Shown: positions 42,982 through 58,228 of the stretch, one piece after another | Position numbering within the stretch: position 1 is the first letter of the stretch | Layout: every line of letters begins with the position of its first letter | Source: Ferrovibrio sp. | GTDB taxonomy: Bacteria; Pseudomonadota; Alphaproteobacteria; Ferrovibrionales; Ferrovibrionaceae | DNA length: 64,000 nucleotides | Direction: 5' to 3' | Assembly (NCBI RefSeq): GCF_017994015.1 | Contig: NZ_JAGOLP010000005.1 | Span: 62,001-126,000 of the forward strand | Position numbers and translations under genes: made by a program | The notes under the pieces: generated by a model | What the model saw: only the letters and a program-made list of their open reading frames with translations | What the model was told of the DNA's origin: nothing | Databases searched by the model: none

Positions 42982-43462
42982 GGCGATGGCCTTTCCGCCC
43001 TGGCGGATACCGGGTTGACCGGAACCGCAGCCTGCTTGCCGCGCCATATCCGATCCAGCCGATATTTCCGTGGTTTAGCCATAGTGTACACGCTTCGGCC
43101 GGTCCTCGGCAAAGGCTAGCCGAAGGAAAGCCCGGCCAGCGATAAAAACAGGAAGTTACATGGTTAATGTGCGCTGCCCGGCTTAACAGAGCGTGAACGG
43201 GACGGTTTTGAATTTTTGCGCTGCGATTGCGGCAAATTCATGGTCCCCGCAATAGTTGTGCGAAGCAATTGCAACTAAAACTAATAATACACTCAGTATA
43301 ATCATCGTATTAGCGATAATTAATGCGTAAGCCCTTAAAACAATTGATAAACCTGATTCTGCTTGATGCGTGTGGGCGGGCAGAGTCGCGGATGGCTTAA
43401 TTACATTTTTTAGCCGTTCTTTTGATTTCGCAGCCCCGAATAAGGAAAGAGACAGAGTGATC
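42982..43462. other. 480-bp region between divergent leuA and XRE genes
   Basis: No convincing long gene. The leuA-proximal third is GC-rich and holds a 34-codon minus-strand frame (42978-43082), a palindrome GTGTACAC (43084-43091) and a 7-bp hairpin CTTCGGC/GCCGAAG (43093-43125). The XRE-proximal part is strikingly AT-rich, with a palindrome GCAATTGC (43265-43272) and a perfect -10-like TATAAT (43297-43302). Both promoters should be here. Confidence 0.55.
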
Positions 43463-48823: not shown

Positions 48824-49342
48824 TTAGAGCGGCGCCGGGCCGCGGCTGATCGCGACCACGCCGGTGCGCGAGACATCCACCAGGCCAAGCGGCTGCATCA
48901 GCTTGACGAAGGCGTCGATCTTCTCGGGCGCGCCGGTCAGTTCGAATACGAAGGATTCGATGGTGCTGTCCACTGCGCGGGCACGGAAAATATCGGCGAT
49001 GCGCAAGCTTTCCACCCGCTTCTCGCCGGTGCCGGCCACTTTGACCAGGGCCAGTTCACGCGCCACATGCGGGCCTTCCACGGTCAGGTCATGCACATTA
49101 TGCACCGGCACCAGGCGGCCAAGCTGGGCCTTGATCTGCTCGATCACGGGCGCCGGGCCGGAAGTGACAATGGTGATGCGCGACAGATGCGCCGCGTCGC
49201 TCACCTCGGCAACGGTGAGGCTTTCGATATTGTAGCCGCGGCCGGAAAACAGGCCGACAACACGGGCCAGGATACCCGGCTCATTATCGACCAGCACCGA
49301 CAGGATATGCGATTGAACCGGCAAAGTTGCTTGCGCAGACAT
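48824..49342 (-). CDS. ilvH: Acetolactate synthase small (regulatory) subunit
   Basis: A 172-residue protein. SHILSVLVDNEPGILARVVGLFSGRGYNIESLTVAEV (about 11-47) is an ACT domain and a second regulatory domain follows. It gives valine feedback to the large subunit, encoded 32 bp upstream. Confidence 0.96.
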   Translation of the reverse strand: MSAQATLPVQSHILSVLVDNEPGILARVVGLFSGRGYNIESLTVAEVSDAAHLSRITIVTSGPAPVIEQIKAQLGRLVPVHNVHDLTVEGPHVARELALVKVAGTGEKRVESLRIADIFRARAVDSTIESFVFELTGAPEKIDAFVKLMQPLGLVDVSRTGVVAISRGPAPL

Positions 49343-49374
49343 GATGGGAAATTCCGCTTGATTCGTGGAGGCGC

Positions 49375-51156
49375 TCAGACCAGCGCCATGCCTTCCGCAC
49401 TCACCGACGCGCCGGGATCGGAAGCGCGCTGGTTGTTCAGGATCATTTCGTTATGGGCCGCGCCCGAAGGCACCATCGGGAAACAATTCTCGTCCTTCGA
49501 GACGGCCACATCCACCACCACCGGGCGGTCGACCTTGATCATCTCGTCGATCACCGCATCGAGATCGCCCGGGCTGGTGCAGCGCAGGCCAACGCAATGG
49601 AATGCCTCGGCCAGTTTGACAAAATCCGGCAAGGCTTCGGAATAGGTTTCAGAATAGCGGCTGTCATGCAGCAATTCCTGCCACTGCCGCACCATGCCCA
49701 TATATTCATTGTTGAGGATGAACACCTTCACCGGCAGGCGATATTGCGCCGCCGTGCCGAGTTCCTGAATGTTCATCAGGATCGAGGCTTCGCCGGCGAT
49801 ATCCACCACCAGCTTGCCCGGATTGCCGAGCTGCGCACCCACGGCGGCGGGCAGGCCATAGCCCATGGTGCCAAGGCCGCCCGAGGTCATCCAGCGATTC
49901 GGCTGCTCAAACTTGTAGAACTGCGCCGCCCACATCTGGTGCTGGCCCACTTCGGTGGTGATGAATGTGTCGCGCTGCTTGGTCTTTTCATACAGCCGCT
50001 GGATGGCGTATTGCGGCTTGATGATCTTGTCGTCCTGCTGGAAGGCAAGGCAATCGCGGGCGCGCCACTGGTCGATCTGGGTCCACCATTTGTCGAGCGC
50101 CGGCTGGTTCGGCTTGTAGCCGCCCTGCTTCCACACCGCAATCATCTGCTCCAGCACGCGGCAGGCATCGCCAACGATGCAGATATCGGCGCGCACCGTC
50201 TTGTTATGCGACGACGGATCGATATCAACATGGATTTTCTTCGAGCCCGGCGAAAAGGCATTGAGCCGGCCGGTGATGCGATCATCAAAGCGCGCACCGA
50301 TATTGATCATCACATCGCAATCATGCATGGCATGATTGGCTTCCCAGGTGCCGTGCATGCCCAGCATGCCGAGGAATTGCCGGTCGGTGCCGGAATATGA
50401 ACCCAGCCCCATCAGGGTGTTGGTGATCGGGAAGCCGGTCAGCTTGACCAGTTCGCGCAGCAATTCAGAAGCGCGCGGGCCGGCATTGACGATGCCGCCG
50501 CCGGTATAAAATACCGGCCGCTGCGCCTTGGCCATCAATTCCACTGCCGCACGGATTTTGCCGTCGTCACCTTCAACACGCGGGCGATAGGTCTTGTGCC
50601 GCACATTGGCCGGGCCGGTATAAGGCCCCTTCGCCACCTGGATATCCTTGGGCAGATCAATCACCACCGGGCCGGGCCGGCCGCTGGTGGCAACATAGAA
50701 CGCCTCATGCACCACACGGGCCAGATCGTCGCTGCTCTTCACCAGATAATTATGCTTGGTGCAGGGCCGGGTGATGCCGGTGGTGTCGCATTCCTGGAAC
50801 GCATCGGTGCCGATCAGATGGGTGGCGACCTGGCCGGTCAGGCAGACAATCGGGATCGAATCCATCAGCGCATCGGTCAGGCCGGTGACGGCATTGGTGG
50901 CGCCGGGGCCGGACGTGACCAACACCACACCCGGCTTGCCGGTGGAACGGGCATAACCTTCGGCGGCATGCACGGCGCCCTGCTCATGGCGCACCAGCAC
51001 ATGGCGAATGGCATTCTGCTTGAACAACGCATCGTAAATCGGCAATACCGCGCCACCCGGATAGCCAAAAATGACCTCGACGCCCTGATCAACAAGCGCC
51101 TTGATCACCAGCTCCGCGCCGGACATGGTCTGCTGTTCACGCTGCTCGGTATCCAT
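49375..51156 (-). CDS. ilvB: Acetolactate synthase large (catalytic) subunit
   Basis: A 593-residue ThDP enzyme. It has VIFGYPGGAVLPIYDAL and HEQGAVHAAEGYARSTGKPG (catalytic Glu, about 57), the FAD-contact centre, and the ThDP motif GEASILMNIQELGTAAQYRLPVKVFILNN (about 455, with GEA in place of the usual GDG/GDA start). The last block VPSGAAHNEMIL is typical. The start at 51156 lies behind AAGGAT. It makes acetolactate or acetohydroxybutyrate. Confidence 0.96.
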   Translation of the reverse strand: MDTEQREQQTMSGAELVIKALVDQGVEVIFGYPGGAVLPIYDALFKQNAIRHVLVRHEQGAVHAAEGYARSTGKPGVVLVTSGPGATNAVTGLTDALMDSIPIVCLTGQVATHLIGTDAFQECDTTGITRPCTKHNYLVKSSDDLARVVHEAFYVATSGRPGPVVIDLPKDIQVAKGPYTGPANVRHKTYRPRVEGDDGKIRAAVELMAKAQRPVFYTGGGIVNAGPRASELLRELVKLTGFPITNTLMGLGSYSGTDRQFLGMLGMHGTWEANHAMHDCDVMINIGARFDDRITGRLNAFSPGSKKIHVDIDPSSHNKTVRADICIVGDACRVLEQMIAVWKQGGYKPNQPALDKWWTQIDQWRARDCLAFQQDDKIIKPQYAIQRLYEKTKQRDTFITTEVGQHQMWAAQFYKFEQPNRWMTSGGLGTMGYGLPAAVGAQLGNPGKLVVDIAGEASILMNIQELGTAAQYRLPVKVFILNNEYMGMVRQWQELLHDSRYSETYSEALPDFVKLAEAFHCVGLRCTSPGDLDAVIDEMIKVDRPVVVDVAVSKDENCFPMVPSGAAHNEMILNNQRASDPGASVSAEGMALV

Positions 51157-51231
51157 AACTCCGTATCCTTGCCTGTAGGGCCTGAAGCGGCAGGCGAAAC
51201 ACTCGCCCACCCTGTAAAAAAGCGCGCCACC

Positions 51232-52212
51232 CTAAACAGAGGGGTAGCGGGTGGTCAACAGGTATCTCATAAGAAATGGAAAGATTTTTGCCTCTGGGTT
51301 GAAATTTTCTTTCTCTCCGAGGTCGCTTTCCTCAACTAGGTCCGGGCTGATCTGGTGCCGGAACCAGGTGGTCTGGCGCTTGGCGTAATGCCTTGTATTC
51401 GCTTGGGCAAGGCTTATCGCCGTTTCCAGATCAATTTCTCCGGCCAGATGGCGCAGCAATTCCGGCAGGCCATGCGCCTTGCGGATCGGCGCATCCGGCG
51501 GCACATCGGTTCGGGCAGTAAAAATCCGCGCTTCCTCAAGCGCCCCGGCGGCGATCATGGCGGCAAAACGCTGGTCGATCCGGGCATAAAGCGGGGCGCG
51601 CGGCGGCCGCAGCAGCAGCCAGCAAGCCGGATTGGGCAAACCCGGCGCCCCGGCCTCGCGGCGCCAGGCTGCCAGGCCACGCCCGCTGCCGGCCAGCACT
51701 TCCCAGGCCCGCGCCAGGCGCTGGCTGTCGCCCGGCTTGAGCTGGGCGGCGGTTTCCGGATCGAGGCGGCTCAATTCAGCATGCAGCCCGGCAGGCCCAA
51801 GCCGTGCCAGCAAAGCCTGCGCTTCGGCCTTGGCTTCAGGCGGCAGGGCCGGCACCTGCACCAGGCCATCGATCAGGCCCCGCAGATACATCCCGGTGCC
51901 GCCCACCAGCACCGGCAGGCGCCCGGCCTCGGCGGCCCCGGCAATCGCGGCCAGGGCCAGATCGCGCCAGCGCGCCGCCGTGCCATGCTCGGCGCCATCC
52001 AGCACACCATAAAGCCGGTGCGGCACCCGCGCCGTCTCCTCGGCGCTCGGTCGGGCGCTCAGGATATGCAGGTCGCGATAGACCTGCATGCTGTCGGCAT
52101 TGATCACCACGCCGCCAAAACGCTCGGCAATCGCCAAGCCCAGCGCCGACTTGCCGCTGGCGGTGGGGCCGGCAACGATGACAAGCGGCCAACTGGCAGG
52201 TATATGGGTCAT
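51232..52212 (-). CDS. miaA: tRNA dimethylallyltransferase
   Basis: A 326-residue enzyme that adds dimethylallyl to A37 of tRNAs reading UNN codons. The P-loop is VAGPTASGKSALGLAIAERFGG (about 14), with INADSMQVYRDLHILSARPSAEE and VGGTGMYLRGLIDGL as substrate and catalytic regions, and NTRHYAKRQTTWFRHQ near the C-terminus. It is divergent from serB and 75 bp upstream of ilvB on the same strand. Confidence 0.95.
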   Translation of the reverse strand: MTHIPASWPLVIVAGPTASGKSALGLAIAERFGGVVINADSMQVYRDLHILSARPSAEETARVPHRLYGVLDGAEHGTAARWRDLALAAIAGAAEAGRLPVLVGGTGMYLRGLIDGLVQVPALPPEAKAEAQALLARLGPAGLHAELSRLDPETAAQLKPGDSQRLARAWEVLAGSGRGLAAWRREAGAPGLPNPACWLLLRPPRAPLYARIDQRFAAMIAAGALEEARIFTARTDVPPDAPIRKAHGLPELLRHLAGEIDLETAISLAQANTRHYAKRQTTWFRHQISPDLVEESDLGEKENFNPEAKIFPFLMRYLLTTRYPSV

Positions 52213-52239
52213 CCTGTCTTCTTATCCCGGTTCGTGGCC

Positions 52240-53139
52240 ATGCAAAACCTTCTCACCCTGATCTCCGATCCACGCGGCGCCGTACTCAGCGAGCGTGTGG
52301 CCGGGGCGGTGCGCGATGCGCTGGCCATGGCCGGGGCGAAAGTCGGCCCGGCGGATTGGCTTGATCCCGGCGTGGCCTGCGACATTGCCTTCGACCGGCT
52401 GGCCGGCGAAGCGGCGGTGAAAGCCGCCAAGGTGGCCCTGCGCGGCGCCCCGGTGGACCTGCTGCTGCCGCCACTGGAAAACCGCCGCAAGCAGGTGCTG
52501 GTGGCCGATATGGAATCCACCATCATCCGCAACGAGATGCTGGATGAACTGGCCGAACTGGCACGCCTCGGCCCCGGCATCGCCGAGATCACCCGCCGCG
52601 CCATGAATGGCGAACTGGATTTTGAAGCCGCCTTGCGTGAGCGTGTTGCCCTGCTCAAGGGCCTGCCCGAAACCCTGCTGGCCCAGGCCGCCGGCCTGAT
52701 TCAGCCGATGCCGGGCGCCAAGGCGTTGCTCGGCACCCTCAAGGCGCATGGTGTCTATTGCGCCCTGGTCTCTGGCGGTTTTGATTATTTCACCGGCATG
52801 ATCAAAGACCAGTTCGGCTTCGACGAACACCAGGCCAACCATCTGGTGATAACCTTCGACAAGCTGGCCGGCAGTGTGCGCGAACCAATCCTGGGCCGCG
52901 AAGCCAAACTTGCCGCCCTCAAGCGCATCGCGATTGCGCAGAATGTGGAACTGGCTGATTGTCTCACTGTGGGCGATGGCGCCAACGATCTGGCCATGCT
53001 GCAAGCCGCCGGCATGGGCATCGCCTTCCGCGCCAAGCCGGTGGTGCGCGAACAGGCGCGTTTCTCGATCCAGCATGGCGACCTGACAGGGCTACTCTAT
53101 GCCCAGGGCTACAGGCGGGATGAAATCCTCGGCCGTTGA
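52240..53139 (+). CDS. serB: Phosphoserine phosphatase
   Basis: A 299-residue HAD enzyme, the last step of serine synthesis. The phosphorylation motif is DMESTIIRNEMLDELAE (DxxST type, about 88), SGGF with KLAAL give motifs II and III, and VGDGANDLAMLQAAG is motif IV. An N-terminal regulatory domain (about 1-85) is present. The start at 52240 is likely; an in-frame ATG at 52204 would overlap miaA. The TGA stop is embedded in a TTGACA promoter element for the next transcript. Confidence 0.93.
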   Translation: MQNLLTLISDPRGAVLSERVAGAVRDALAMAGAKVGPADWLDPGVACDIAFDRLAGEAAVKAAKVALRGAPVDLLLPPLENRRKQVLVADMESTIIRNEMLDELAELARLGPGIAEITRRAMNGELDFEAALRERVALLKGLPETLLAQAAGLIQPMPGAKALLGTLKAHGVYCALVSGGFDYFTGMIKDQFGFDEHQANHLVITFDKLAGSVREPILGREAKLAALKRIAIAQNVELADCLTVGDGANDLAMLQAAGMGIAFRAKPVVREQARFSIQHGDLTGLLYAQGYRRDEILGR

Positions 53140-53164
53140 CAGGCCGCCGCGGCCGCACTAGCTT
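53136..53164 (+). promoter_or_regulatory. Sigma-70-type promoter overlapping the serB stop
   Basis: TTGACA (53136-53141), a 17-bp spacer and TAGCTT (53159-53164) form a -35/-10 pair with a perfect -35. The expected start site, about 7 bp after the -10 box, falls at or next to the leader ATG at 53172. The leader message would therefore be leaderless, as known for trpL in Sinorhizobium. Confidence 0.7.
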
Positions 53165-53171
53165 TAACGCC

Positions 53172-53222
53172 ATGCACACCCGCGCCGTCTTTACGAACTG
53201 GTATTTTACGCTGCTCCCATAG
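53172..53222 (+). CDS. Aromatic leader peptide of a transcription attenuator
   Basis: The 16-codon frame reads MHTRAVFTNWYFTLLP. It has a run Trp-Tyr-Phe (53199-53207) with another Phe four codons earlier, and no ribosome site upstream. Its Trp-Tyr-Phe codons sit immediately beside the 5' arm of the 1:2 stem, which is the diagnostic arrangement for ribosome-mediated attenuation. It would sense Trp, Tyr or Phe charging. It is too short for ordinary gene calls. I do not recognise this exact peptide. Confidence 0.75.
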   Translation: MHTRAVFTNWYFTLLP

Positions 53223-53284
53223 CGGCGACGGTTCGTATGTGACAAACGACCCAATGCCGCCGCAGCCACCGGCGGCATTCGTGT
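53192..53284 (+). promoter_or_regulatory. Attenuator with competing 1:2, 2:3 and 3:4 stems
   Basis: Arm 1 TACGAAC (53192-53198) pairs with GTTCGTA in arm 2 (53231-53237). The 5' part of arm 2, GCGGCG (53222-53227), can instead pair with CGCCGC in arm 3 (53258-53263) as an antiterminator. Arms 3 and 4 form a perfect 10-bp terminator stem AATGCCGCCG/CGGCGGCATT (53253-53262 and 53270-53279), followed by CGTGTTTT. The stems exclude one another, as in trp-type attenuators. Confidence 0.72.
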
Positions 53285-53350
53285 TTTCAGACAATCCGAT
53301 GCTTCCGGCCTCCGGCGGAAAACCCACCGCTGACCCTGAGGAGAAGTATC

Positions 53351-53623
53351 ATGCCCACACTCACCGCCGATAACACCGCCCCGCTCGACCTGCCGCGCGA
53401 AGCCTTGCTGCATGGCATGGACCTAGTGGACCTGCTGGTTACTGCCCGGCTGGCCGATAACCGCAGCGATGCCCGCCGCCTGATCCGCACCGCCAAGGCG
53501 CGGCTCAATGGCCGCGTGGTGGCGCATGAAGGCGTTACCGCCGGGCTCGACGATCTGGACAAGAACGGCCTGCTGCGCCTGGCCACCGGCCAAAACCGCG
53601 AAAGACTGGTGCGGGCGGCCTAA
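53351..53623 (+). CDS. Free-standing S4-domain protein, like the tyrosyl-tRNA synthetase C-terminus
   Basis: A 90-residue protein behind a strong AGGAGA site. Residues about 24-57 (LVDLLVTARLADNRSDARRLIRTAKARLNGRVV) form an S4 RNA-binding motif very like the tRNA-binding tail of bacterial TyrRS, including the later LLRLATGQNRERLVRA segment. There is no catalytic domain. The gene is controlled by an aromatic-codon attenuator, which supports a link to tyrosine or aromatic metabolism. It could bind tRNA-Tyr, its own leader RNA or rRNA. Those roles are inference. Confidence 0.75.
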   Translation: MPTLTADNTAPLDLPREALLHGMDLVDLLVTARLADNRSDARRLIRTAKARLNGRVVAHEGVTAGLDDLDKNGLLRLATGQNRERLVRAA

Positions 53624-53632
53624 AATATCTTT

Positions 53633-53678
53633 TTGCTCATTTTATACATATCGTATAAAATAGACAAAATGATCATTT
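53633..53678 (+). promoter_or_regulatory. Promoter and operator of the Phd/PIN toxin-antitoxin operon
   Basis: TTGCTC (53633-53638), 17 bp and TAAAAT (53656-53661) form the promoter. A perfect 9-bp inverted repeat ATTTTATAC-N5-GTATAAAAT (53639-53661) covers the spacer and -10. A second palindrome AAATGATCATTT lies at 53667-53678. This layout fits autorepression by the antitoxin-toxin complex. Confidence 0.7.
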
Positions 53679-53691
53679 ACTGGAAGCAGTC

Positions 53692-53943
53692 ATGCGCACC
53701 ATCTCAGCCACCCAGGCCAAACAGGAATTTGCGGCATTGCTTGATGTCGCCCAGCACGAGCCGGTACTGATCCGGCGCCAGAAGCGTGATGTGGCGGTAT
53801 TGCTCTCGATGCGAGATTTTGAGGCATTGCGCGCCTATCGCTTGGAGGAATTGCGCCAACATTCAGAGCGGGTCGGCGCCCGTGCCGTAGCCGCCGGCTT
53901 GACCGAAGATAAGCTGGCGGCACTGCTGGCGGACGAGCGCTGA
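53692..53943 (+). CDS. Type II antitoxin, Phd/YefM family
   Basis: An 83-residue protein. RTISATQAKQEFAALLDVAQHEPVLIRRQKRDVAVLLSMRDFEAL (about 2-47) is the Phd/YefM DNA-binding fold. The C-terminal helix (about 50-80) would wrap and neutralise the toxin encoded next. The antitoxin probably represses its own operon through the palindromes upstream. Confidence 0.9.
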   Translation: MRTISATQAKQEFAALLDVAQHEPVLIRRQKRDVAVLLSMRDFEALRAYRLEELRQHSERVGARAVAAGLTEDKLAALLADER

Positions 53944-53944
53944 T

Positions 53945-54346
53945 GTGCGCTTTGTCCTTGATACCAATGTTCTGATCAGCAAATTCCTGCTTCCAGGCTC
54001 GGTGGCGGATCAGGCTTTCTGGAAAGCCAGCGGCCTTGGTACGTTGCTTATGAGCGAAGGAACTTTTGCCGAATTGAGTCAGGTGCTATTACGGCCGAAA
54101 TTCGACCGTTATGTTTCGCAGCAAGACCGCGCCACATTGCTTACGCTGATCGAAGACATCGCAGATTTCATTTCAGAACCACCTGAAATCCAGGCCTGCC
54201 GTGACCCACAGGACGACAAGTTTCTCAGCCTCGCTGTCGCAGGTTCAGCCGCTTGCATCGTCAGCGGCGATGCCTATCTGCTGGCACTGCACCCGTTTCG
54301 CGGCATCCCAATCCTAAAGCCGGCGACTTTCCTTGCAGATTTCTAA
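53945..54346 (+). CDS. PIN-domain toxin ribonuclease
   Basis: A 133-residue protein from a GTG start one base after the antitoxin stop. FVLDTNVLISKFLLPGS has the first Asp (about 5), a conserved Glu in EGTFAELSQVLLRPKF (about 42), and DPQDDKFLSLA (about 88-98) and VSGDAYLL (about 108) give the remaining acidic residues. It is the 'putative toxin, PIN family' group of metal-dependent RNases. The 3' end overlaps the convergent SDR gene by 4 bp. Confidence 0.9.
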   Translation: MRFVLDTNVLISKFLLPGSVADQAFWKASGLGTLLMSEGTFAELSQVLLRPKFDRYVSQQDRATLLTLIEDIADFISEPPEIQACRDPQDDKFLSLAVAGSAACIVSGDAYLLALHPFRGIPILKPATFLADF

Positions 54347-55167
54347 ACGAAGAAATCCGGGATCAGGTCTTTTTCCTCGACGCCGTCATGGCGGTAGATC
54401 GAGAAATCGCTGACGCCGGCTTCGGCCAGCACGGCATCGTCGATGAAGAAATTGCCGGTGCAGTCGCGGCTCGGACGGGTGAGGATGACATGGGCGGCAT
54501 CGGCCAGGATTGCCGGCTTGCGGCAACGGCGGCGGAAATCCGGCCCGGTGATCACGTTCATCGCATCGGTATCCACAGCGGTGCGCGGCCACAGCGCATT
54601 CACCGCCACGCCCTTGGAACGGAATTCGCCAGACATGCCGAGCACACACAGGCTCATGCCGTATTTCGCCATCGTGTAGGCAACATGCGGCTCAAACCAG
54701 CGCTGCTCCATGTTAAGCGGCGGTGACATGTTGAGGATATGCGGGTTCGGCGCCTTGAGCAGATAGGGCAACGCCTTCTGCGAACAGAGATAGGTGCCGC
54801 GCGTATTGATCTGGTGCATCAGATCATAGCGTTTCATCGGCGTTTCCAGCGTGCCGGTCAGGCTGATCGCTGAGGCATTGTTGATCAGGATGTCGATGCC
54901 GCCAAATTTTTCCGCCGTCTGCGCCATGGCGGCTTCCACGGCGGCTTCCTCGCGCACATCCACCACCAGCGGCAAGGCCTGGCCGCCGGCACGCTCCACC
55001 GCTTCGGCGGCCGAATAGATGGTGCCGGGCAGCTTGGGGTGCGGCTCGGTGGTTTTGGCGGCAATGGCGATATTGGCGCCATCGGCGGCGGCACGGCAGG
55101 CAATCGCCAGGCCGATGCCACGGCTGGCGCCGGTGATGAACAGGGTCTTGCCCTTGAGCGTGGTCAT
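54343..55167 (-). CDS. SDR-family oxidoreductase, HSDL2-like
   Basis: A 274-residue Rossmann enzyme. TGASRGIGLAI (about 12-22), NNASAISLTGTLETPMKRYDLMHQINTRGTYLCSQ (NNAS form, about 92) and the active Tyr/Lys in VAYTMAKYGMSL (about 160) are seen. NALWPRTAVDTDAMN matches the hydroxysteroid-dehydrogenase-like 2 group, which is linked to peroxisomal-type lipid metabolism. The start at 55167 follows GGGGGAGGAA. The MBL hydrolase and acyl-CoA dehydrogenase genes upstream may share the pathway. Confidence 0.9.
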   Translation of the reverse strand: MTTLKGKTLFITGASRGIGLAIACRAAADGANIAIAAKTTEPHPKLPGTIYSAAEAVERAGGQALPLVVDVREEAAVEAAMAQTAEKFGGIDILINNASAISLTGTLETPMKRYDLMHQINTRGTYLCSQKALPYLLKAPNPHILNMSPPLNMEQRWFEPHVAYTMAKYGMSLCVLGMSGEFRSKGVAVNALWPRTAVDTDAMNVITGPDFRRRCRKPAILADAAHVILTRPSRDCTGNFFIDDAVLAEAGVSDFSIYRHDGVEEKDLIPDFFV

Positions 55168-55204
55168 GTTTTTCCTCCCCCGCCAGGCCCGTTCGGGCCT
55201 GGGC

Positions 55205-56287
55205 TTATTGTGCCGCTTCCGCCATAACGCTGCGGCTATATTCATACACGCCCTGGGCATTCAGGCTGCGCTGCACCTGGCCTTCCAGCATCAGATGATG
55301 CAGATGCGCCATCGCCTCGCCGGCCGCCAGGGTGATGTGATCCTTGATATCGCGCTTGAACAGCAGCGGCAGCGTATCCAGCACCGTCATCGGCCGGTCC
55401 ATCGCCTGCATCAGGATATCCAGCCGCTCCTGATGGTGGCGCTTGAGATAGGCGATGCGCGCATGCAGTCCAACAAACACATCACCATGCGACGGCATCA
55501 CCCACACATCGGCGGGCAGATCGGCGAAGCGGTCCAGCGAGCGCAGATACAGCGTCAGCGAGCAGGCTTCCGGCTCGCCGGGATAAACCCCGATATGCGG
55601 GCTGATACGCGGCAGCACCTGATCGCCGGAGATCAGCAGATTGAGTTCGGCGCAATACAGGCTGGCATGTTCCGGCGAATGGCCGCGCCCGATGATGACG
55701 CGCCAATCATGGCCGCCGATACGCACCAGATCGCCTTCCACGATACGGTGGTAGTAACGCGGAATTTCGGTCACCGCCTTGCGGAAATTGCCAAAGCCGC
55801 TCTGCTTGATCTTGTCGAGGCCGGCTTCGTCGAAACCGACCCGGCTGTAAAAATGCAGCACTTCCGGCGGCACCTCGGCCTGGGCATCCAGCGACAGCAT
55901 GCGACCGAAGCTCCATTCGCCCAGGGTCATCCAGAGCGGCGCCTGCCAGCGTTCATGCAGCCAGCCGGCCAGGCCAAGATGATCCGGATGGAAATGTGTG
56001 CAGAGGATGCGAGTGATCGGCTTGCCATCCAGGTGGCGCTCAAAAACCTGCTGCCACAAAGCTTGCAGCTTGGACGAGCGCACGCCGGTATCCACCACGG
56101 TCCAGCCTTCGCCATCGCGCAGCAGCCATAGATTGATGTAGTCAAGGCCGGGAATCGGGATCGGCATGCGCAGCCAGAACACGCCGGGGCGCAGTTCAAA
56201 AACCTCGGCATCCCCGGGCCGCGGGCCGGCGGCATGGTCGGTGAAGGGGAAGCTTAAGCCGATATTGCGCTGATCAATCTCCGACAC
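55205..56287 (-). CDS. MBL-fold metallo-hydrolase
   Basis: A 360-residue metallo-beta-lactamase-fold protein. THFHPDHLG (HxHxDH, about 108-116), the later His in GRGHSPEHASLY and SGDQVLP (Asp) bind two metals. A C-terminal helical domain (about 275-355) is as in hydrolases acting on CoA thioesters or lactones. The substrate is unknown. It is close to the SDR gene in the same direction. Confidence 0.88.
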   Translation of the reverse strand: MSEIDQRNIGLSFPFTDHAAGPRPGDAEVFELRPGVFWLRMPIPIPGLDYINLWLLRDGEGWTVVDTGVRSSKLQALWQQVFERHLDGKPITRILCTHFHPDHLGLAGWLHERWQAPLWMTLGEWSFGRMLSLDAQAEVPPEVLHFYSRVGFDEAGLDKIKQSGFGNFRKAVTEIPRYYHRIVEGDLVRIGGHDWRVIIGRGHSPEHASLYCAELNLLISGDQVLPRISPHIGVYPGEPEACSLTLYLRSLDRFADLPADVWVMPSHGDVFVGLHARIAYLKRHHQERLDILMQAMDRPMTVLDTLPLLFKRDIKDHITLAAGEAMAHLHHLMLEGQVQRSLNAQGVYEYSRSVMAEAAQ

Positions 56288-56376
56288 AGGGTATTCCTTC
56301 GTACTGGGGGCAGGTTGTTATTTTTTTCACGCCATGAATTGTAGGAGGTGGTTAACGTAAGCGTCAACAATGGATA

Positions 56377-56409
56377 CGGGCCGCCCCAGGGAAGCCCTGG
56401 AACGGCCCG
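56377..56409 (-). terminator. Hairpin after the acyl-CoA dehydrogenase gene
   Basis: The outer stem CGGGCCG/CGGCCCG encloses CCAGG/CCTGG. It lies 26 bp beyond the stop codon (56435). No T-run follows in the minus direction, so it is only a candidate terminator. Confidence 0.45.
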
Positions 56410-56434
56410 ATAATATTTAGAATCAAATAGTTAC

Positions 56435-58228
56435 TCAGGCTCGCAGCAAATCTGCCGTCACCTGGGCCAGATCATCGGCGCCTTCCATGGCGCCCAGGCA
56501 GCGGCCTTCCACGGCGGTCAGCACCTGTTCGGCGAAGAAGCGCGCCGACAGGATTTTGGCACTGAAATACGGATCGGTGCTGCCCGCCGCAATCTCCGCC
56601 TTGGCCGCCAGGGCCAGCCGGGCCAGCAGCCAGCCGCCGACGGTTTCCGAGAAAGCCCGGTGATATGGCGTGGCGCCAGCCAGGGCGGCATTGGCATCCT
56701 TGGGCAATGTGGCCGCCATCCATTGCGTGGCCTTCTTCAGTGCCGCCAGGGCACGGCCGAGTTCACGCTGCACCGAGGCGAAACCATCGCCGGCCCGGCC
56801 GAGCGCGGCCAAAGTGGCCTCGATCTCGCCGAACAGCCGCCGCACGGTGTCGCCGCCCTGCAAACCGAGCTTGCGGGTTACCAGATCAATGGCCTGGATG
56901 CCGTTGGTGCCTTCATAGATCGGCAGGATGCGGGCATCGCGATAATGCTGCGCCGCGCCGGTCTCCTCGATAAAGCCCATGCCGCCGTGAATCTGCACAC
57001 CGATGGACGCCACTTCGCAGCCCACATCGGTGGCCCAGGCCTTGGACAGCGGGGTGAGCAATTCCACCAACGCCTTGGCGTCAGTAGCCACCGCCTTGTC
57101 CGGATCGTGATGGGCGCGGTCAATGCTGGCTGCATTGAGATAGACCAAAGCGCGCAGGGCCTCGGTCTGGGTTTTCATCAGCATCAGATTGCGGCGCACA
57201 TCGGCATGCTCGATGATCGCCACATGCTGTTCGGCATTCATGCCGGGATGGCGGCCCTGCTTGCGGCCCTCGGCATAGCTCAAGGCCTGCTGGAAAGCCC
57301 GTTCGGCAATCGCGAGGCCCTGGCAGCCGACGCTGAGGCGGGCATTGTTCATCATGGTGAACATGCAGCGCATGCCCTGATTCTCGGCGCCGAGCAGCCA
57401 GCCAATGCATTCGTCATTGTCGCCATAGGACATGACGCAGGTGGGGCTGGCATGGATGCCTAGCTTGTGTTCCACCGAAACCACGCGCAGATCGTTGCGA
57501 CGACCGAGCGAGCCATCCGCCTTGGGGATGAATTTCGGCACGATGAACAGCGAGATGCCCTTGGTGCCGGCCGGCGCGCCGGGCAGGCGGGCCAACACCA
57601 GATGCACAATATTCTCGGCCATCTGGTGTTCGCCATAGGTGATGAAAATCTTGGTGCCGGTGATGCGGTAGGTGCCATCGCCATTCGGCACCGCCCTGGA
57701 TTTCAGCGCGCCGACATCCGAGCCGGCCTGCGGCTCGGTCAGGTTCATGGTGCCGGTCCATTCGCCCGATACCATCTTGGGCAGATACATCGCCTGCTGC
57801 TCCGGCGTGCCATGGGCAATGATGGCGTCGATGGCGCCCTGGGTCAGCAGCGGGCAGAGCGAGAACGACATGTTCGAGGCCTGCACCATTTCCTGCACCG
57901 CCATGGTGACGGCCCAGGGGATGGCGCCACCGCCGATTTCCTCGGCAAACGGCATGCCGTTCCAGCCGGCTTCGGCGAATTGCTTGTAGGCTTCGGCAAA
58001 ACCATCGGCGGTGCGCACGGTGCCGTTTTCCACCCGGGAACCCTGCTGGTCGCCGATGCGGTTGATCGGCGACAACACACCGGCGGCAAACTTGGCAGCT
58101 TCCTCCAGCACGGCGGCGGCGGTTTCCGGCTCGGCATTACCCAGGCCCGGCAGGGTGCTGAGCTGGCTCAAGCCGGCCACCTGCTCCAGCACAAAACGCA
58201 TATCCTTGATCGGTGCGGTATACTCCAT
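56435..58228 (-). CDS. Acyl-CoA dehydrogenase, long form (DmdC/FadE-like)
   Basis: A 597-residue flavoenzyme, longer than the 380-residue classical type. It has N-terminal, middle (MNLTEPQAGSDVGAL, ITGTKIFITYGEHQ) and C-terminal helical domains plus a C-terminal extension (about 465-590). The base Glu is in RDARILPIYEGTNGIQAIDL (about 430). This type includes 3-methylmercaptopropionyl-CoA dehydrogenase and FadE homologues; the substrate cannot be read. The start at 58228 is behind AGGAGG with 5-bp spacing. It is divergent from the tsaC gene. Confidence 0.92.
   Translation of the reverse strand: MEYTAPIKDMRFVLEQVAGLSQLSTLPGLGNAEPETAAAVLEEAAKFAAGVLSPINRIGDQQGSRVENGTVRTADGFAEAYKQFAEAGWNGMPFAEEIGGGAIPWAVTMAVQEMVQASNMSFSLCPLLTQGAIDAIIAHGTPEQQAMYLPKMVSGEWTGTMNLTEPQAGSDVGALKSRAVPNGDGTYRITGTKIFITYGEHQMAENIVHLVLARLPGAPAGTKGISLFIVPKFIPKADGSLGRRNDLRVVSVEHKLGIHASPTCVMSYGDNDECIGWLLGAENQGMRCMFTMMNNARLSVGCQGLAIAERAFQQALSYAEGRKQGRHPGMNAEQHVAIIEHADVRRNLMLMKTQTEALRALVYLNAASIDRAHHDPDKAVATDAKALVELLTPLSKAWATDVGCEVASIGVQIHGGMGFIEETGAAQHYRDARILPIYEGTNGIQAIDLVTRKLGLQGGDTVRRLFGEIEATLAALGRAGDGFASVQRELGRALAALKKATQWMAATLPKDANAALAGATPYHRAFSETVGGWLLARLALAAKAEIAAGSTDPYFSAKILSARFFAEQVLTAVEGRCLGAMEGADDLAQVTADLLRA

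Follow-up and report, generated by a model that had tools for sequence, protein, structure and literature searches.

Attenuators of amino-acid and aminoacyl-tRNA synthetase operons, such as pheST and pheA of Escherichia coli, carry control codons related to their targets and form alternative hairpins, and their targets are complete enzymes. In Sinorhizobium meliloti, trpL encodes a 14 aa peptide with Trp codons, the target is trpE(G), and the 5' end of the RNA, rnTrpL, was mapped to the ATG of trpL (PMC7298713). We analysed a 64,000 nt stretch of a Ferrovibrio genome, referred to here as the window. An earlier note on the window had marked a leader peptide in the range 53136-53222, which comprises the leader promoter and the leader ORF, and had claimed for it the same arrangement as in S. 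meliloti trpL. This comparison was sound, since rnTrpL starts at the trpL ATG (PMC7298713). S. meliloti trpL also resembles the Ferrovibrio locus in having a short leader ORF with aromatic codons, followed by alternative hairpins, which in Ferrovibrio are predicted, before the regulated gene (PMC7298713). The two differ in that the 5' end at the leader ATG is mapped in S. meliloti (PMC7298713) and predicted in Ferrovibrio, and in that the Ferrovibrio leaders encode 16 or 23 aa, combine Trp, Tyr and Phe codons and precede the gene of a stand-alone S4 protein.

The features of the locus are as follows. The earlier note mentioned neither the hairpins, terminator-like and alternative, nor the downstream gene related to the tail of tyrosyl-tRNA synthetase (TyrRS).

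52240-53139, + strand: serB-like HAD phosphatase (Pfam HAD PF12710, E 4.7e-20), upstream neighbour of the leader
53136-53141, + strand: -35 element TTGACA, read from the sequence; TTGAC is invariant in all ten Ferrovibrio genomes
53159-53164, + strand: -10-like element TAGCTT, separated by 7 bp (TAACGCC) from the ATG at 53172
53172-53222, + strand: leader ORF MHTRAVFTNWYFTLLP with stop TAG at 53220-53222, 16 residues; a leader ORF is present in all ten genomes
53199-53207, + strand: putative control codons Trp-Tyr-Phe (TGG TAT TTT); W, Y and F occur in all ten leaders
53210-53226, + strand: protector hairpin 1:2 (53210-53215 with 53221-53226); one pair is changed from GC to AU in G003/G009
53222-53263, + strand: predicted antiterminator 2:3 (53222-53239 with 53243-53263); shuffle control 9/200 for the window sequence
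53253-53288, + strand: hairpin 3:4 (53253-53262 with 53270-53279) and CGTGTTTTC, scored as terminator-like
53298-53350, + strand: hairpin overlapping the Shine-Dalgarno (SD) sequence of the S4 gene (53298-53305 with 53343-53350; SD GAGGAG at 53338-53343)
53351-53623, + strand: stand-alone S4-domain protein of 90 aa, a relative of the C-terminal domain of TyrRS

The locus was compared in ten genomes of the genus Ferrovibrio (G000 to G009, G000 being the genome of the window) and in eight other genomes of the family. The same layout was found in all ten Ferrovibrio genomes: a promoter, an aromatic-rich leader and GC-rich hairpins, followed by one gene, that of the S4 protein. Two types were distinguished, type A (G000, G003, G004, G007 and G009) and type B (G001, G002, G005, G006 and G008). 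We consider it likely that the locus works as a trpL-type, ribosome-mediated attenuator, in which a leaderless leader ORF senses the supply of aromatic aminoacyl-tRNA and controls the S4 gene. Unlike in E. coli pheST and pheA, the target is a relative of the RNA-binding tail of a synthetase only, and the leader mixes three aromatic residues.

RNA hairpins and the proposed switch

According to the proposed mechanism, RNA polymerase would start at or beside 53172, and the first ribosome would load on the 5' AUG and translate the leader with its Trp, Tyr and Phe codons. When charged tRNAs are sufficient, the ribosome at the stop codon (53220) would cover region 2, allowing the 3:4 hairpin to form and transcription to end. 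If charged tRNA runs short for Trp, Tyr or Phe, the ribosome would stall at 53199-53207 and cover region 1. Region 2 would then pair with region 3 as an antiterminator, and the polymerase would continue into the S4 gene at 53351, whose expression would be induced by aromatic starvation. A further, translational layer of control is probably provided by the second hairpin, which lies over the S4 SD.

The stretch of 179 nt between the leader ATG and the S4 gene folds better than shuffled sequences (z -3.29, with 2/200 shuffles as good). Among the type-A sequences, compensatory changes were seen in one pair of the protector hairpin (G003/G009) and in two pairs of the SD hairpin, both sides being changed in G007; these counts beat the sliding control and rest on five sequences, some of them nearly identical. 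The arms of the SD hairpin differ in type-B genomes. In the antiterminator 2:3 helices, 100% and 97.5% of the cells are paired, yet there is almost no variation, and the aligned type-A sequences do not differ at all in the 3:4 hairpin. The hairpins of the five type-B genomes contain no covarying pair. A search of window positions 49000-57000 with the Rfam 15 covariance models gave no match at the curated score, the only sub-threshold one lying outside the leader.

Folding was also carried out with ribosomes placed on the leader. In transcripts ended before region 4, pairing of region 3 with region 2 was seen when the ribosome occupied the aromatic codons, and it was reduced when the ribosome occupied the leader stop. 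Equilibrium folding with ribosome blocks gave no switch, the 3:4 hairpin staying formed in most ribosome states. The difference between stall and stop was reached by 9/200 shuffles for G000 and by 27-76/200 for the other seven of the eight genomes tested (out of ten). The antiterminator 2:3 is plausible on these models. The support for an RNA switch is moderate, with few compensatory pairs, weak shuffle controls and the U-tract absent in half of the genomes.

The sequence after hairpin 3:4 bears on the level at which control would act. In the five type-A genomes a T-rich tract lies 3' of the hairpin; it reads CGTTTTTTC in G003/G009 and either CGTGTTTTC or CGTGTTTCT in the remaining three. The corresponding hairpins of the five type-B genomes have no U-tract, and thus there is room for translational control. 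Control might even be exerted at translation only, the ribosome on the leader mainly rearranging hairpins that hide the S4 SD and the 3:4 hairpin being no terminator. The type-B hairpins agree with this explanation, as do the complementary arms that cover the SD in ten genomes and differ in sequence among the G000-type genomes, G007 and type B. However, it accounts poorly for the T-rich tracts of type A, such as that of G003/G009, and for the terminator-like score of the hairpin in the window, and we regard it as unlikely, though it is the strongest competitor of transcription attenuation.

Leader peptide and genomic setting

Short leader ORFs with clustered control codons precede the S4 gene in all ten genomes. 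The type-A peptides are MHTRAVFTNWYFTLLP in G000, MHIRAVFTNWYFTLLP in G004, MHSRAVFNYWYFTLLT in both G003 and G009, and MIANATFRPWYFTLHT in G007. Those of type B are MTATYRFWHYFTPSHTGGALVIV in G008, MTICAHQYYWFTPSHTGGALVIV in G005, MTHAANFYYWFIPSHTGGAQGFV in G001, MTFAANYYYWFISSHTGGAQGFV in G002 and MIHAANYYYWFISSHTGGAQGFV in G006. The aromatic residues form clusters such as NWYFT, YWYFT and NYYYWF, and residues outside the cluster vary freely between types. Codons for Trp, Tyr and Phe are the control codons common to all ten leaders, and the leader of the window has no serine codon. As a background, the window contains 482 ORFs of 12-30 aa that start with ATG, and three of them, the leader included, have W, Y and F within 8 residues. 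The other two are located at 43366 (+ strand) and 3917 (- strand).

The promoter, the leader and the S4 gene travel as a unit and were found at three kinds of genomic site. serB lies directly upstream of the leader in four of the ten genomes (G000, G003, G004 and G009). The module adjoins a GNAT-like gene in G007 and a methyltransferase-like gene in the three type-B genomes for which flanking sequence was inspected (G002, G005 and G008), both labels being given from sequence appearance without a search. Since serB is the neighbour in only four genomes, the link to serine is incidental, and we rejected the tie to serine biosynthesis that the earlier note had drawn; the lack of a serine codon in the window leader likewise gives it no support. 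As judged from the sequences compared, the adjacency of serB is local history.

This linkage also bears on whether the leader itself could be the functional product, as a leaderless small mRNA or sRNA whose peptide or RNA acts in trans like peTrpL/rnTrpL, with the S4 gene a bystander. The predicted 5' geometry equals that of rnTrpL of S. meliloti, and non-coding stretches such as GTATGTGACAAACGA are highly conserved in type A. Against this, leader and S4 gene occur together in 10/10 genomes at all three kinds of site, while the peptide changes freely outside the aromatic cluster and may have 16 or 23 residues. We therefore consider a trans-acting leader improbable, and distinctly less probable than control at translation only.

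Searches with the leader DNA delimited its distribution. The leader pattern matched nine of 96 genomes, namely its own genome, G004 (a genuine match with the same module) and seven others, which were judged to be chance matches as their surroundings had no such module. A longer pattern gave no match over the genome contigs. A DNA similarity search with the leader gave matches in 81 genomes, which were clear only in G000, G004, G009, G003 and G007. In the remaining genomes the matches (E up to 1) were short, mostly GC-rich pieces. The five type-B leaders were missed by this search and were reached only through the S4 protein profile.

Other genes of the genus were searched for similar leaders. 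No convincing aromatic leader was found upstream of trpE (10/10 loci), class II DAHP synthase (8 of 11 loci) or tyrS (8 of 9 loci), and thus no wider regulon was seen. Four matches were dismissed in this search, three that start at TTG and one ATG match judged to lie inside a gene.

Leader promoter and predicted leaderless start

As the earlier note had pointed out, the -10 element ends 7 bp before the ATG and no SD precedes it, and the sequence of the window confirms both. TTGACA and TAGCTT are separated by a spacer of 17 bp. The serB gene ends with CGT TGA, and its TGA (53137-53139) lies inside TTGACA, so the stop codon had correctly been assigned to the -35 element. The list of open reading frames begins the leader frame at a TTG within the -35 box; we took the ATG at 53172 as the start of the leader.

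The promoter was not listed by the default promoter scan because TAGCTT matches TATAAT at only 3/6 positions. With the position fixed to that required by a leaderless start, the leader promoter of the window scored at best 9/12 consensus matches, which was reached by 0/1000 dinucleotide shuffles. The other nine Ferrovibrio genomes gave 8-10 of 12 matches, reached by 0-2/1000 shuffles each. The distance from the start of TTGAC to the leader ATG is 36 bp in nine of the ten genomes and 37 bp in one, and that from the end of the -10-like hexamer to the ATG is 7 bp in nine and 6 bp in one. In the alignment of ten genomes the spacer sequences diverge widely among the G000-type genomes, G007 and type B, and for this reason the hexamers look selected.

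Given the usual distance from a -10 element to the start of transcription, the leader transcript is predicted to begin at the ATG (53172) or within 1-2 bases of it. In the window, the anti-SD duplex energy is +1.3 kcal/mol upstream of the leader ATG, compared with -9.2 upstream of the S4 gene. Across the ten genomes it ranges from -3.6 to +1.9 for the leader and from -4.2 to -9.2 for the S4 gene on the same transcript. In 10/10 genomes, then, a promoter that places the start at or beside the start codon is combined with the lack of an SD. This geometry, kept at three kinds of genomic site, supports the leaderless leader ORF as a prediction, which is how it had been put forward. The comparative evidence for the putative promoter and the leader is strong, and leaderless initiation and attenuation at the leader are predictions. 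A chance origin, in which the 3' flank of serB carries an accidental promoter-like string and a short ORF, may be set aside as extremely improbable, for although the -10 element fits at 3/6 positions only and the default scan omits the promoter, the same elements recur with the same spacing in 10/10 genomes, six of which have no serB next door.

Since the predicted attenuator occurs in ten natural variants and in three kinds of genomic setting, a comparative study of leaderless initiation coupled to attenuation becomes possible outside the rhizobia. A pattern search of the ten genus genomes with TTGAC-N17..19-TAGNCT-N5..8-ATG gave 12 occurrences, against one for the reversed control. The 12 include the G007 and G008 leaders, and the rest may mark further leaderless genes.

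The stand-alone S4 protein

When 96 genomes were searched with the S4 protein, many gave matches at the C-terminal end of full-length TyrRS, and a few Ferrovibrio genomes gave matches to separate short frames. A profile built from six S4 sequences detected stand-alone copies in 10/10 Ferrovibrio genomes and in none of the eight other genomes of the family, an absence that is less firm for the four of these eight that gave no match of any kind, TyrRS included. Among 190 genomes of the class, no stand-alone copy was found besides the gene itself. Two short S4 frames, G128:C74 and G167:C127, lie at contig ends and were read as cut TyrRS.

The protein resembles the C-terminal S4 domain of bacterial TyrRS (PF22421, PF16714; PDB 1h3e, 2jan, 6hb7) in fold and by a weak sequence match. 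PF22421 (TyrRS C-terminal) was matched by all ten S4 proteins at E up to 1, the best being 3.3e-4, with scores below the Pfam gathering cut-off (17.7 bits for the protein of the window against a cut-off of 27). The AlphaFold2 model has a pLDDT of 83.3 and a pTM of 0.71. The first 21 Foldseek matches of this model were all TyrRS, with E from 1.3e-5 and TMq 0.70-0.78, and the model has the TyrRS C-terminal fold. A PDB profile search also matched designed 'Pizza' proteins; no stretch passed alone, and these were considered repeat artefacts.

Unlike the TyrRS domain, the Ferrovibrio protein is stand-alone, evolves fast, remains under the gathering cut-offs and is without the conserved basic motif GKK(R/Q)H close to the C terminus, which is absent from all ten stand-alone proteins and present in 8/8 TyrRS tails of the genus compared. 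Type-B S4 proteins (e.g. L101:2504-2794) are only 31-34% identical to that of the window, whereas these genomes have well-conserved TyrRS tails; hence the rapid evolution of the stand-alone gene. In a tree of 33 rows, from which G004 was left out as identical to G000, one branch separates the stand-alone proteins from the TyrRS of the genus, but their branches are long and may attract.

The results point to a genus-wide small protein, a relative of a synthetase tail, that is apparently controlled by aromatic amino-acid supply. We tentatively suggest a further step, less probable than the attenuator itself: the leaderless ORF would report a shortage of any aromatic aminoacyl-tRNA, and the free-standing derivative of the TyrRS tail would act in starvation on tRNA, on the ribosome or on the leader RNA of its own gene. 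If this is true, the gene under attenuation encodes an RNA-binding effector and neither a biosynthetic enzyme nor a complete synthetase, in a starvation circuit not described before. The proposed trpL-like attenuator is of a known kind; the target and the composition of the sensor are new. Neither the element nor an attenuator before a stand-alone TyrRS tail was found in the open-licence literature, where absence is weak evidence.

The S4 gene is directly followed by genes for a Phd/YefM-type antitoxin and a PIN-domain protein (53692-54346). Before these genes lies an AT-rich palindrome (53616-53686), outside the leader, which gave a sub-threshold match to mir-208.
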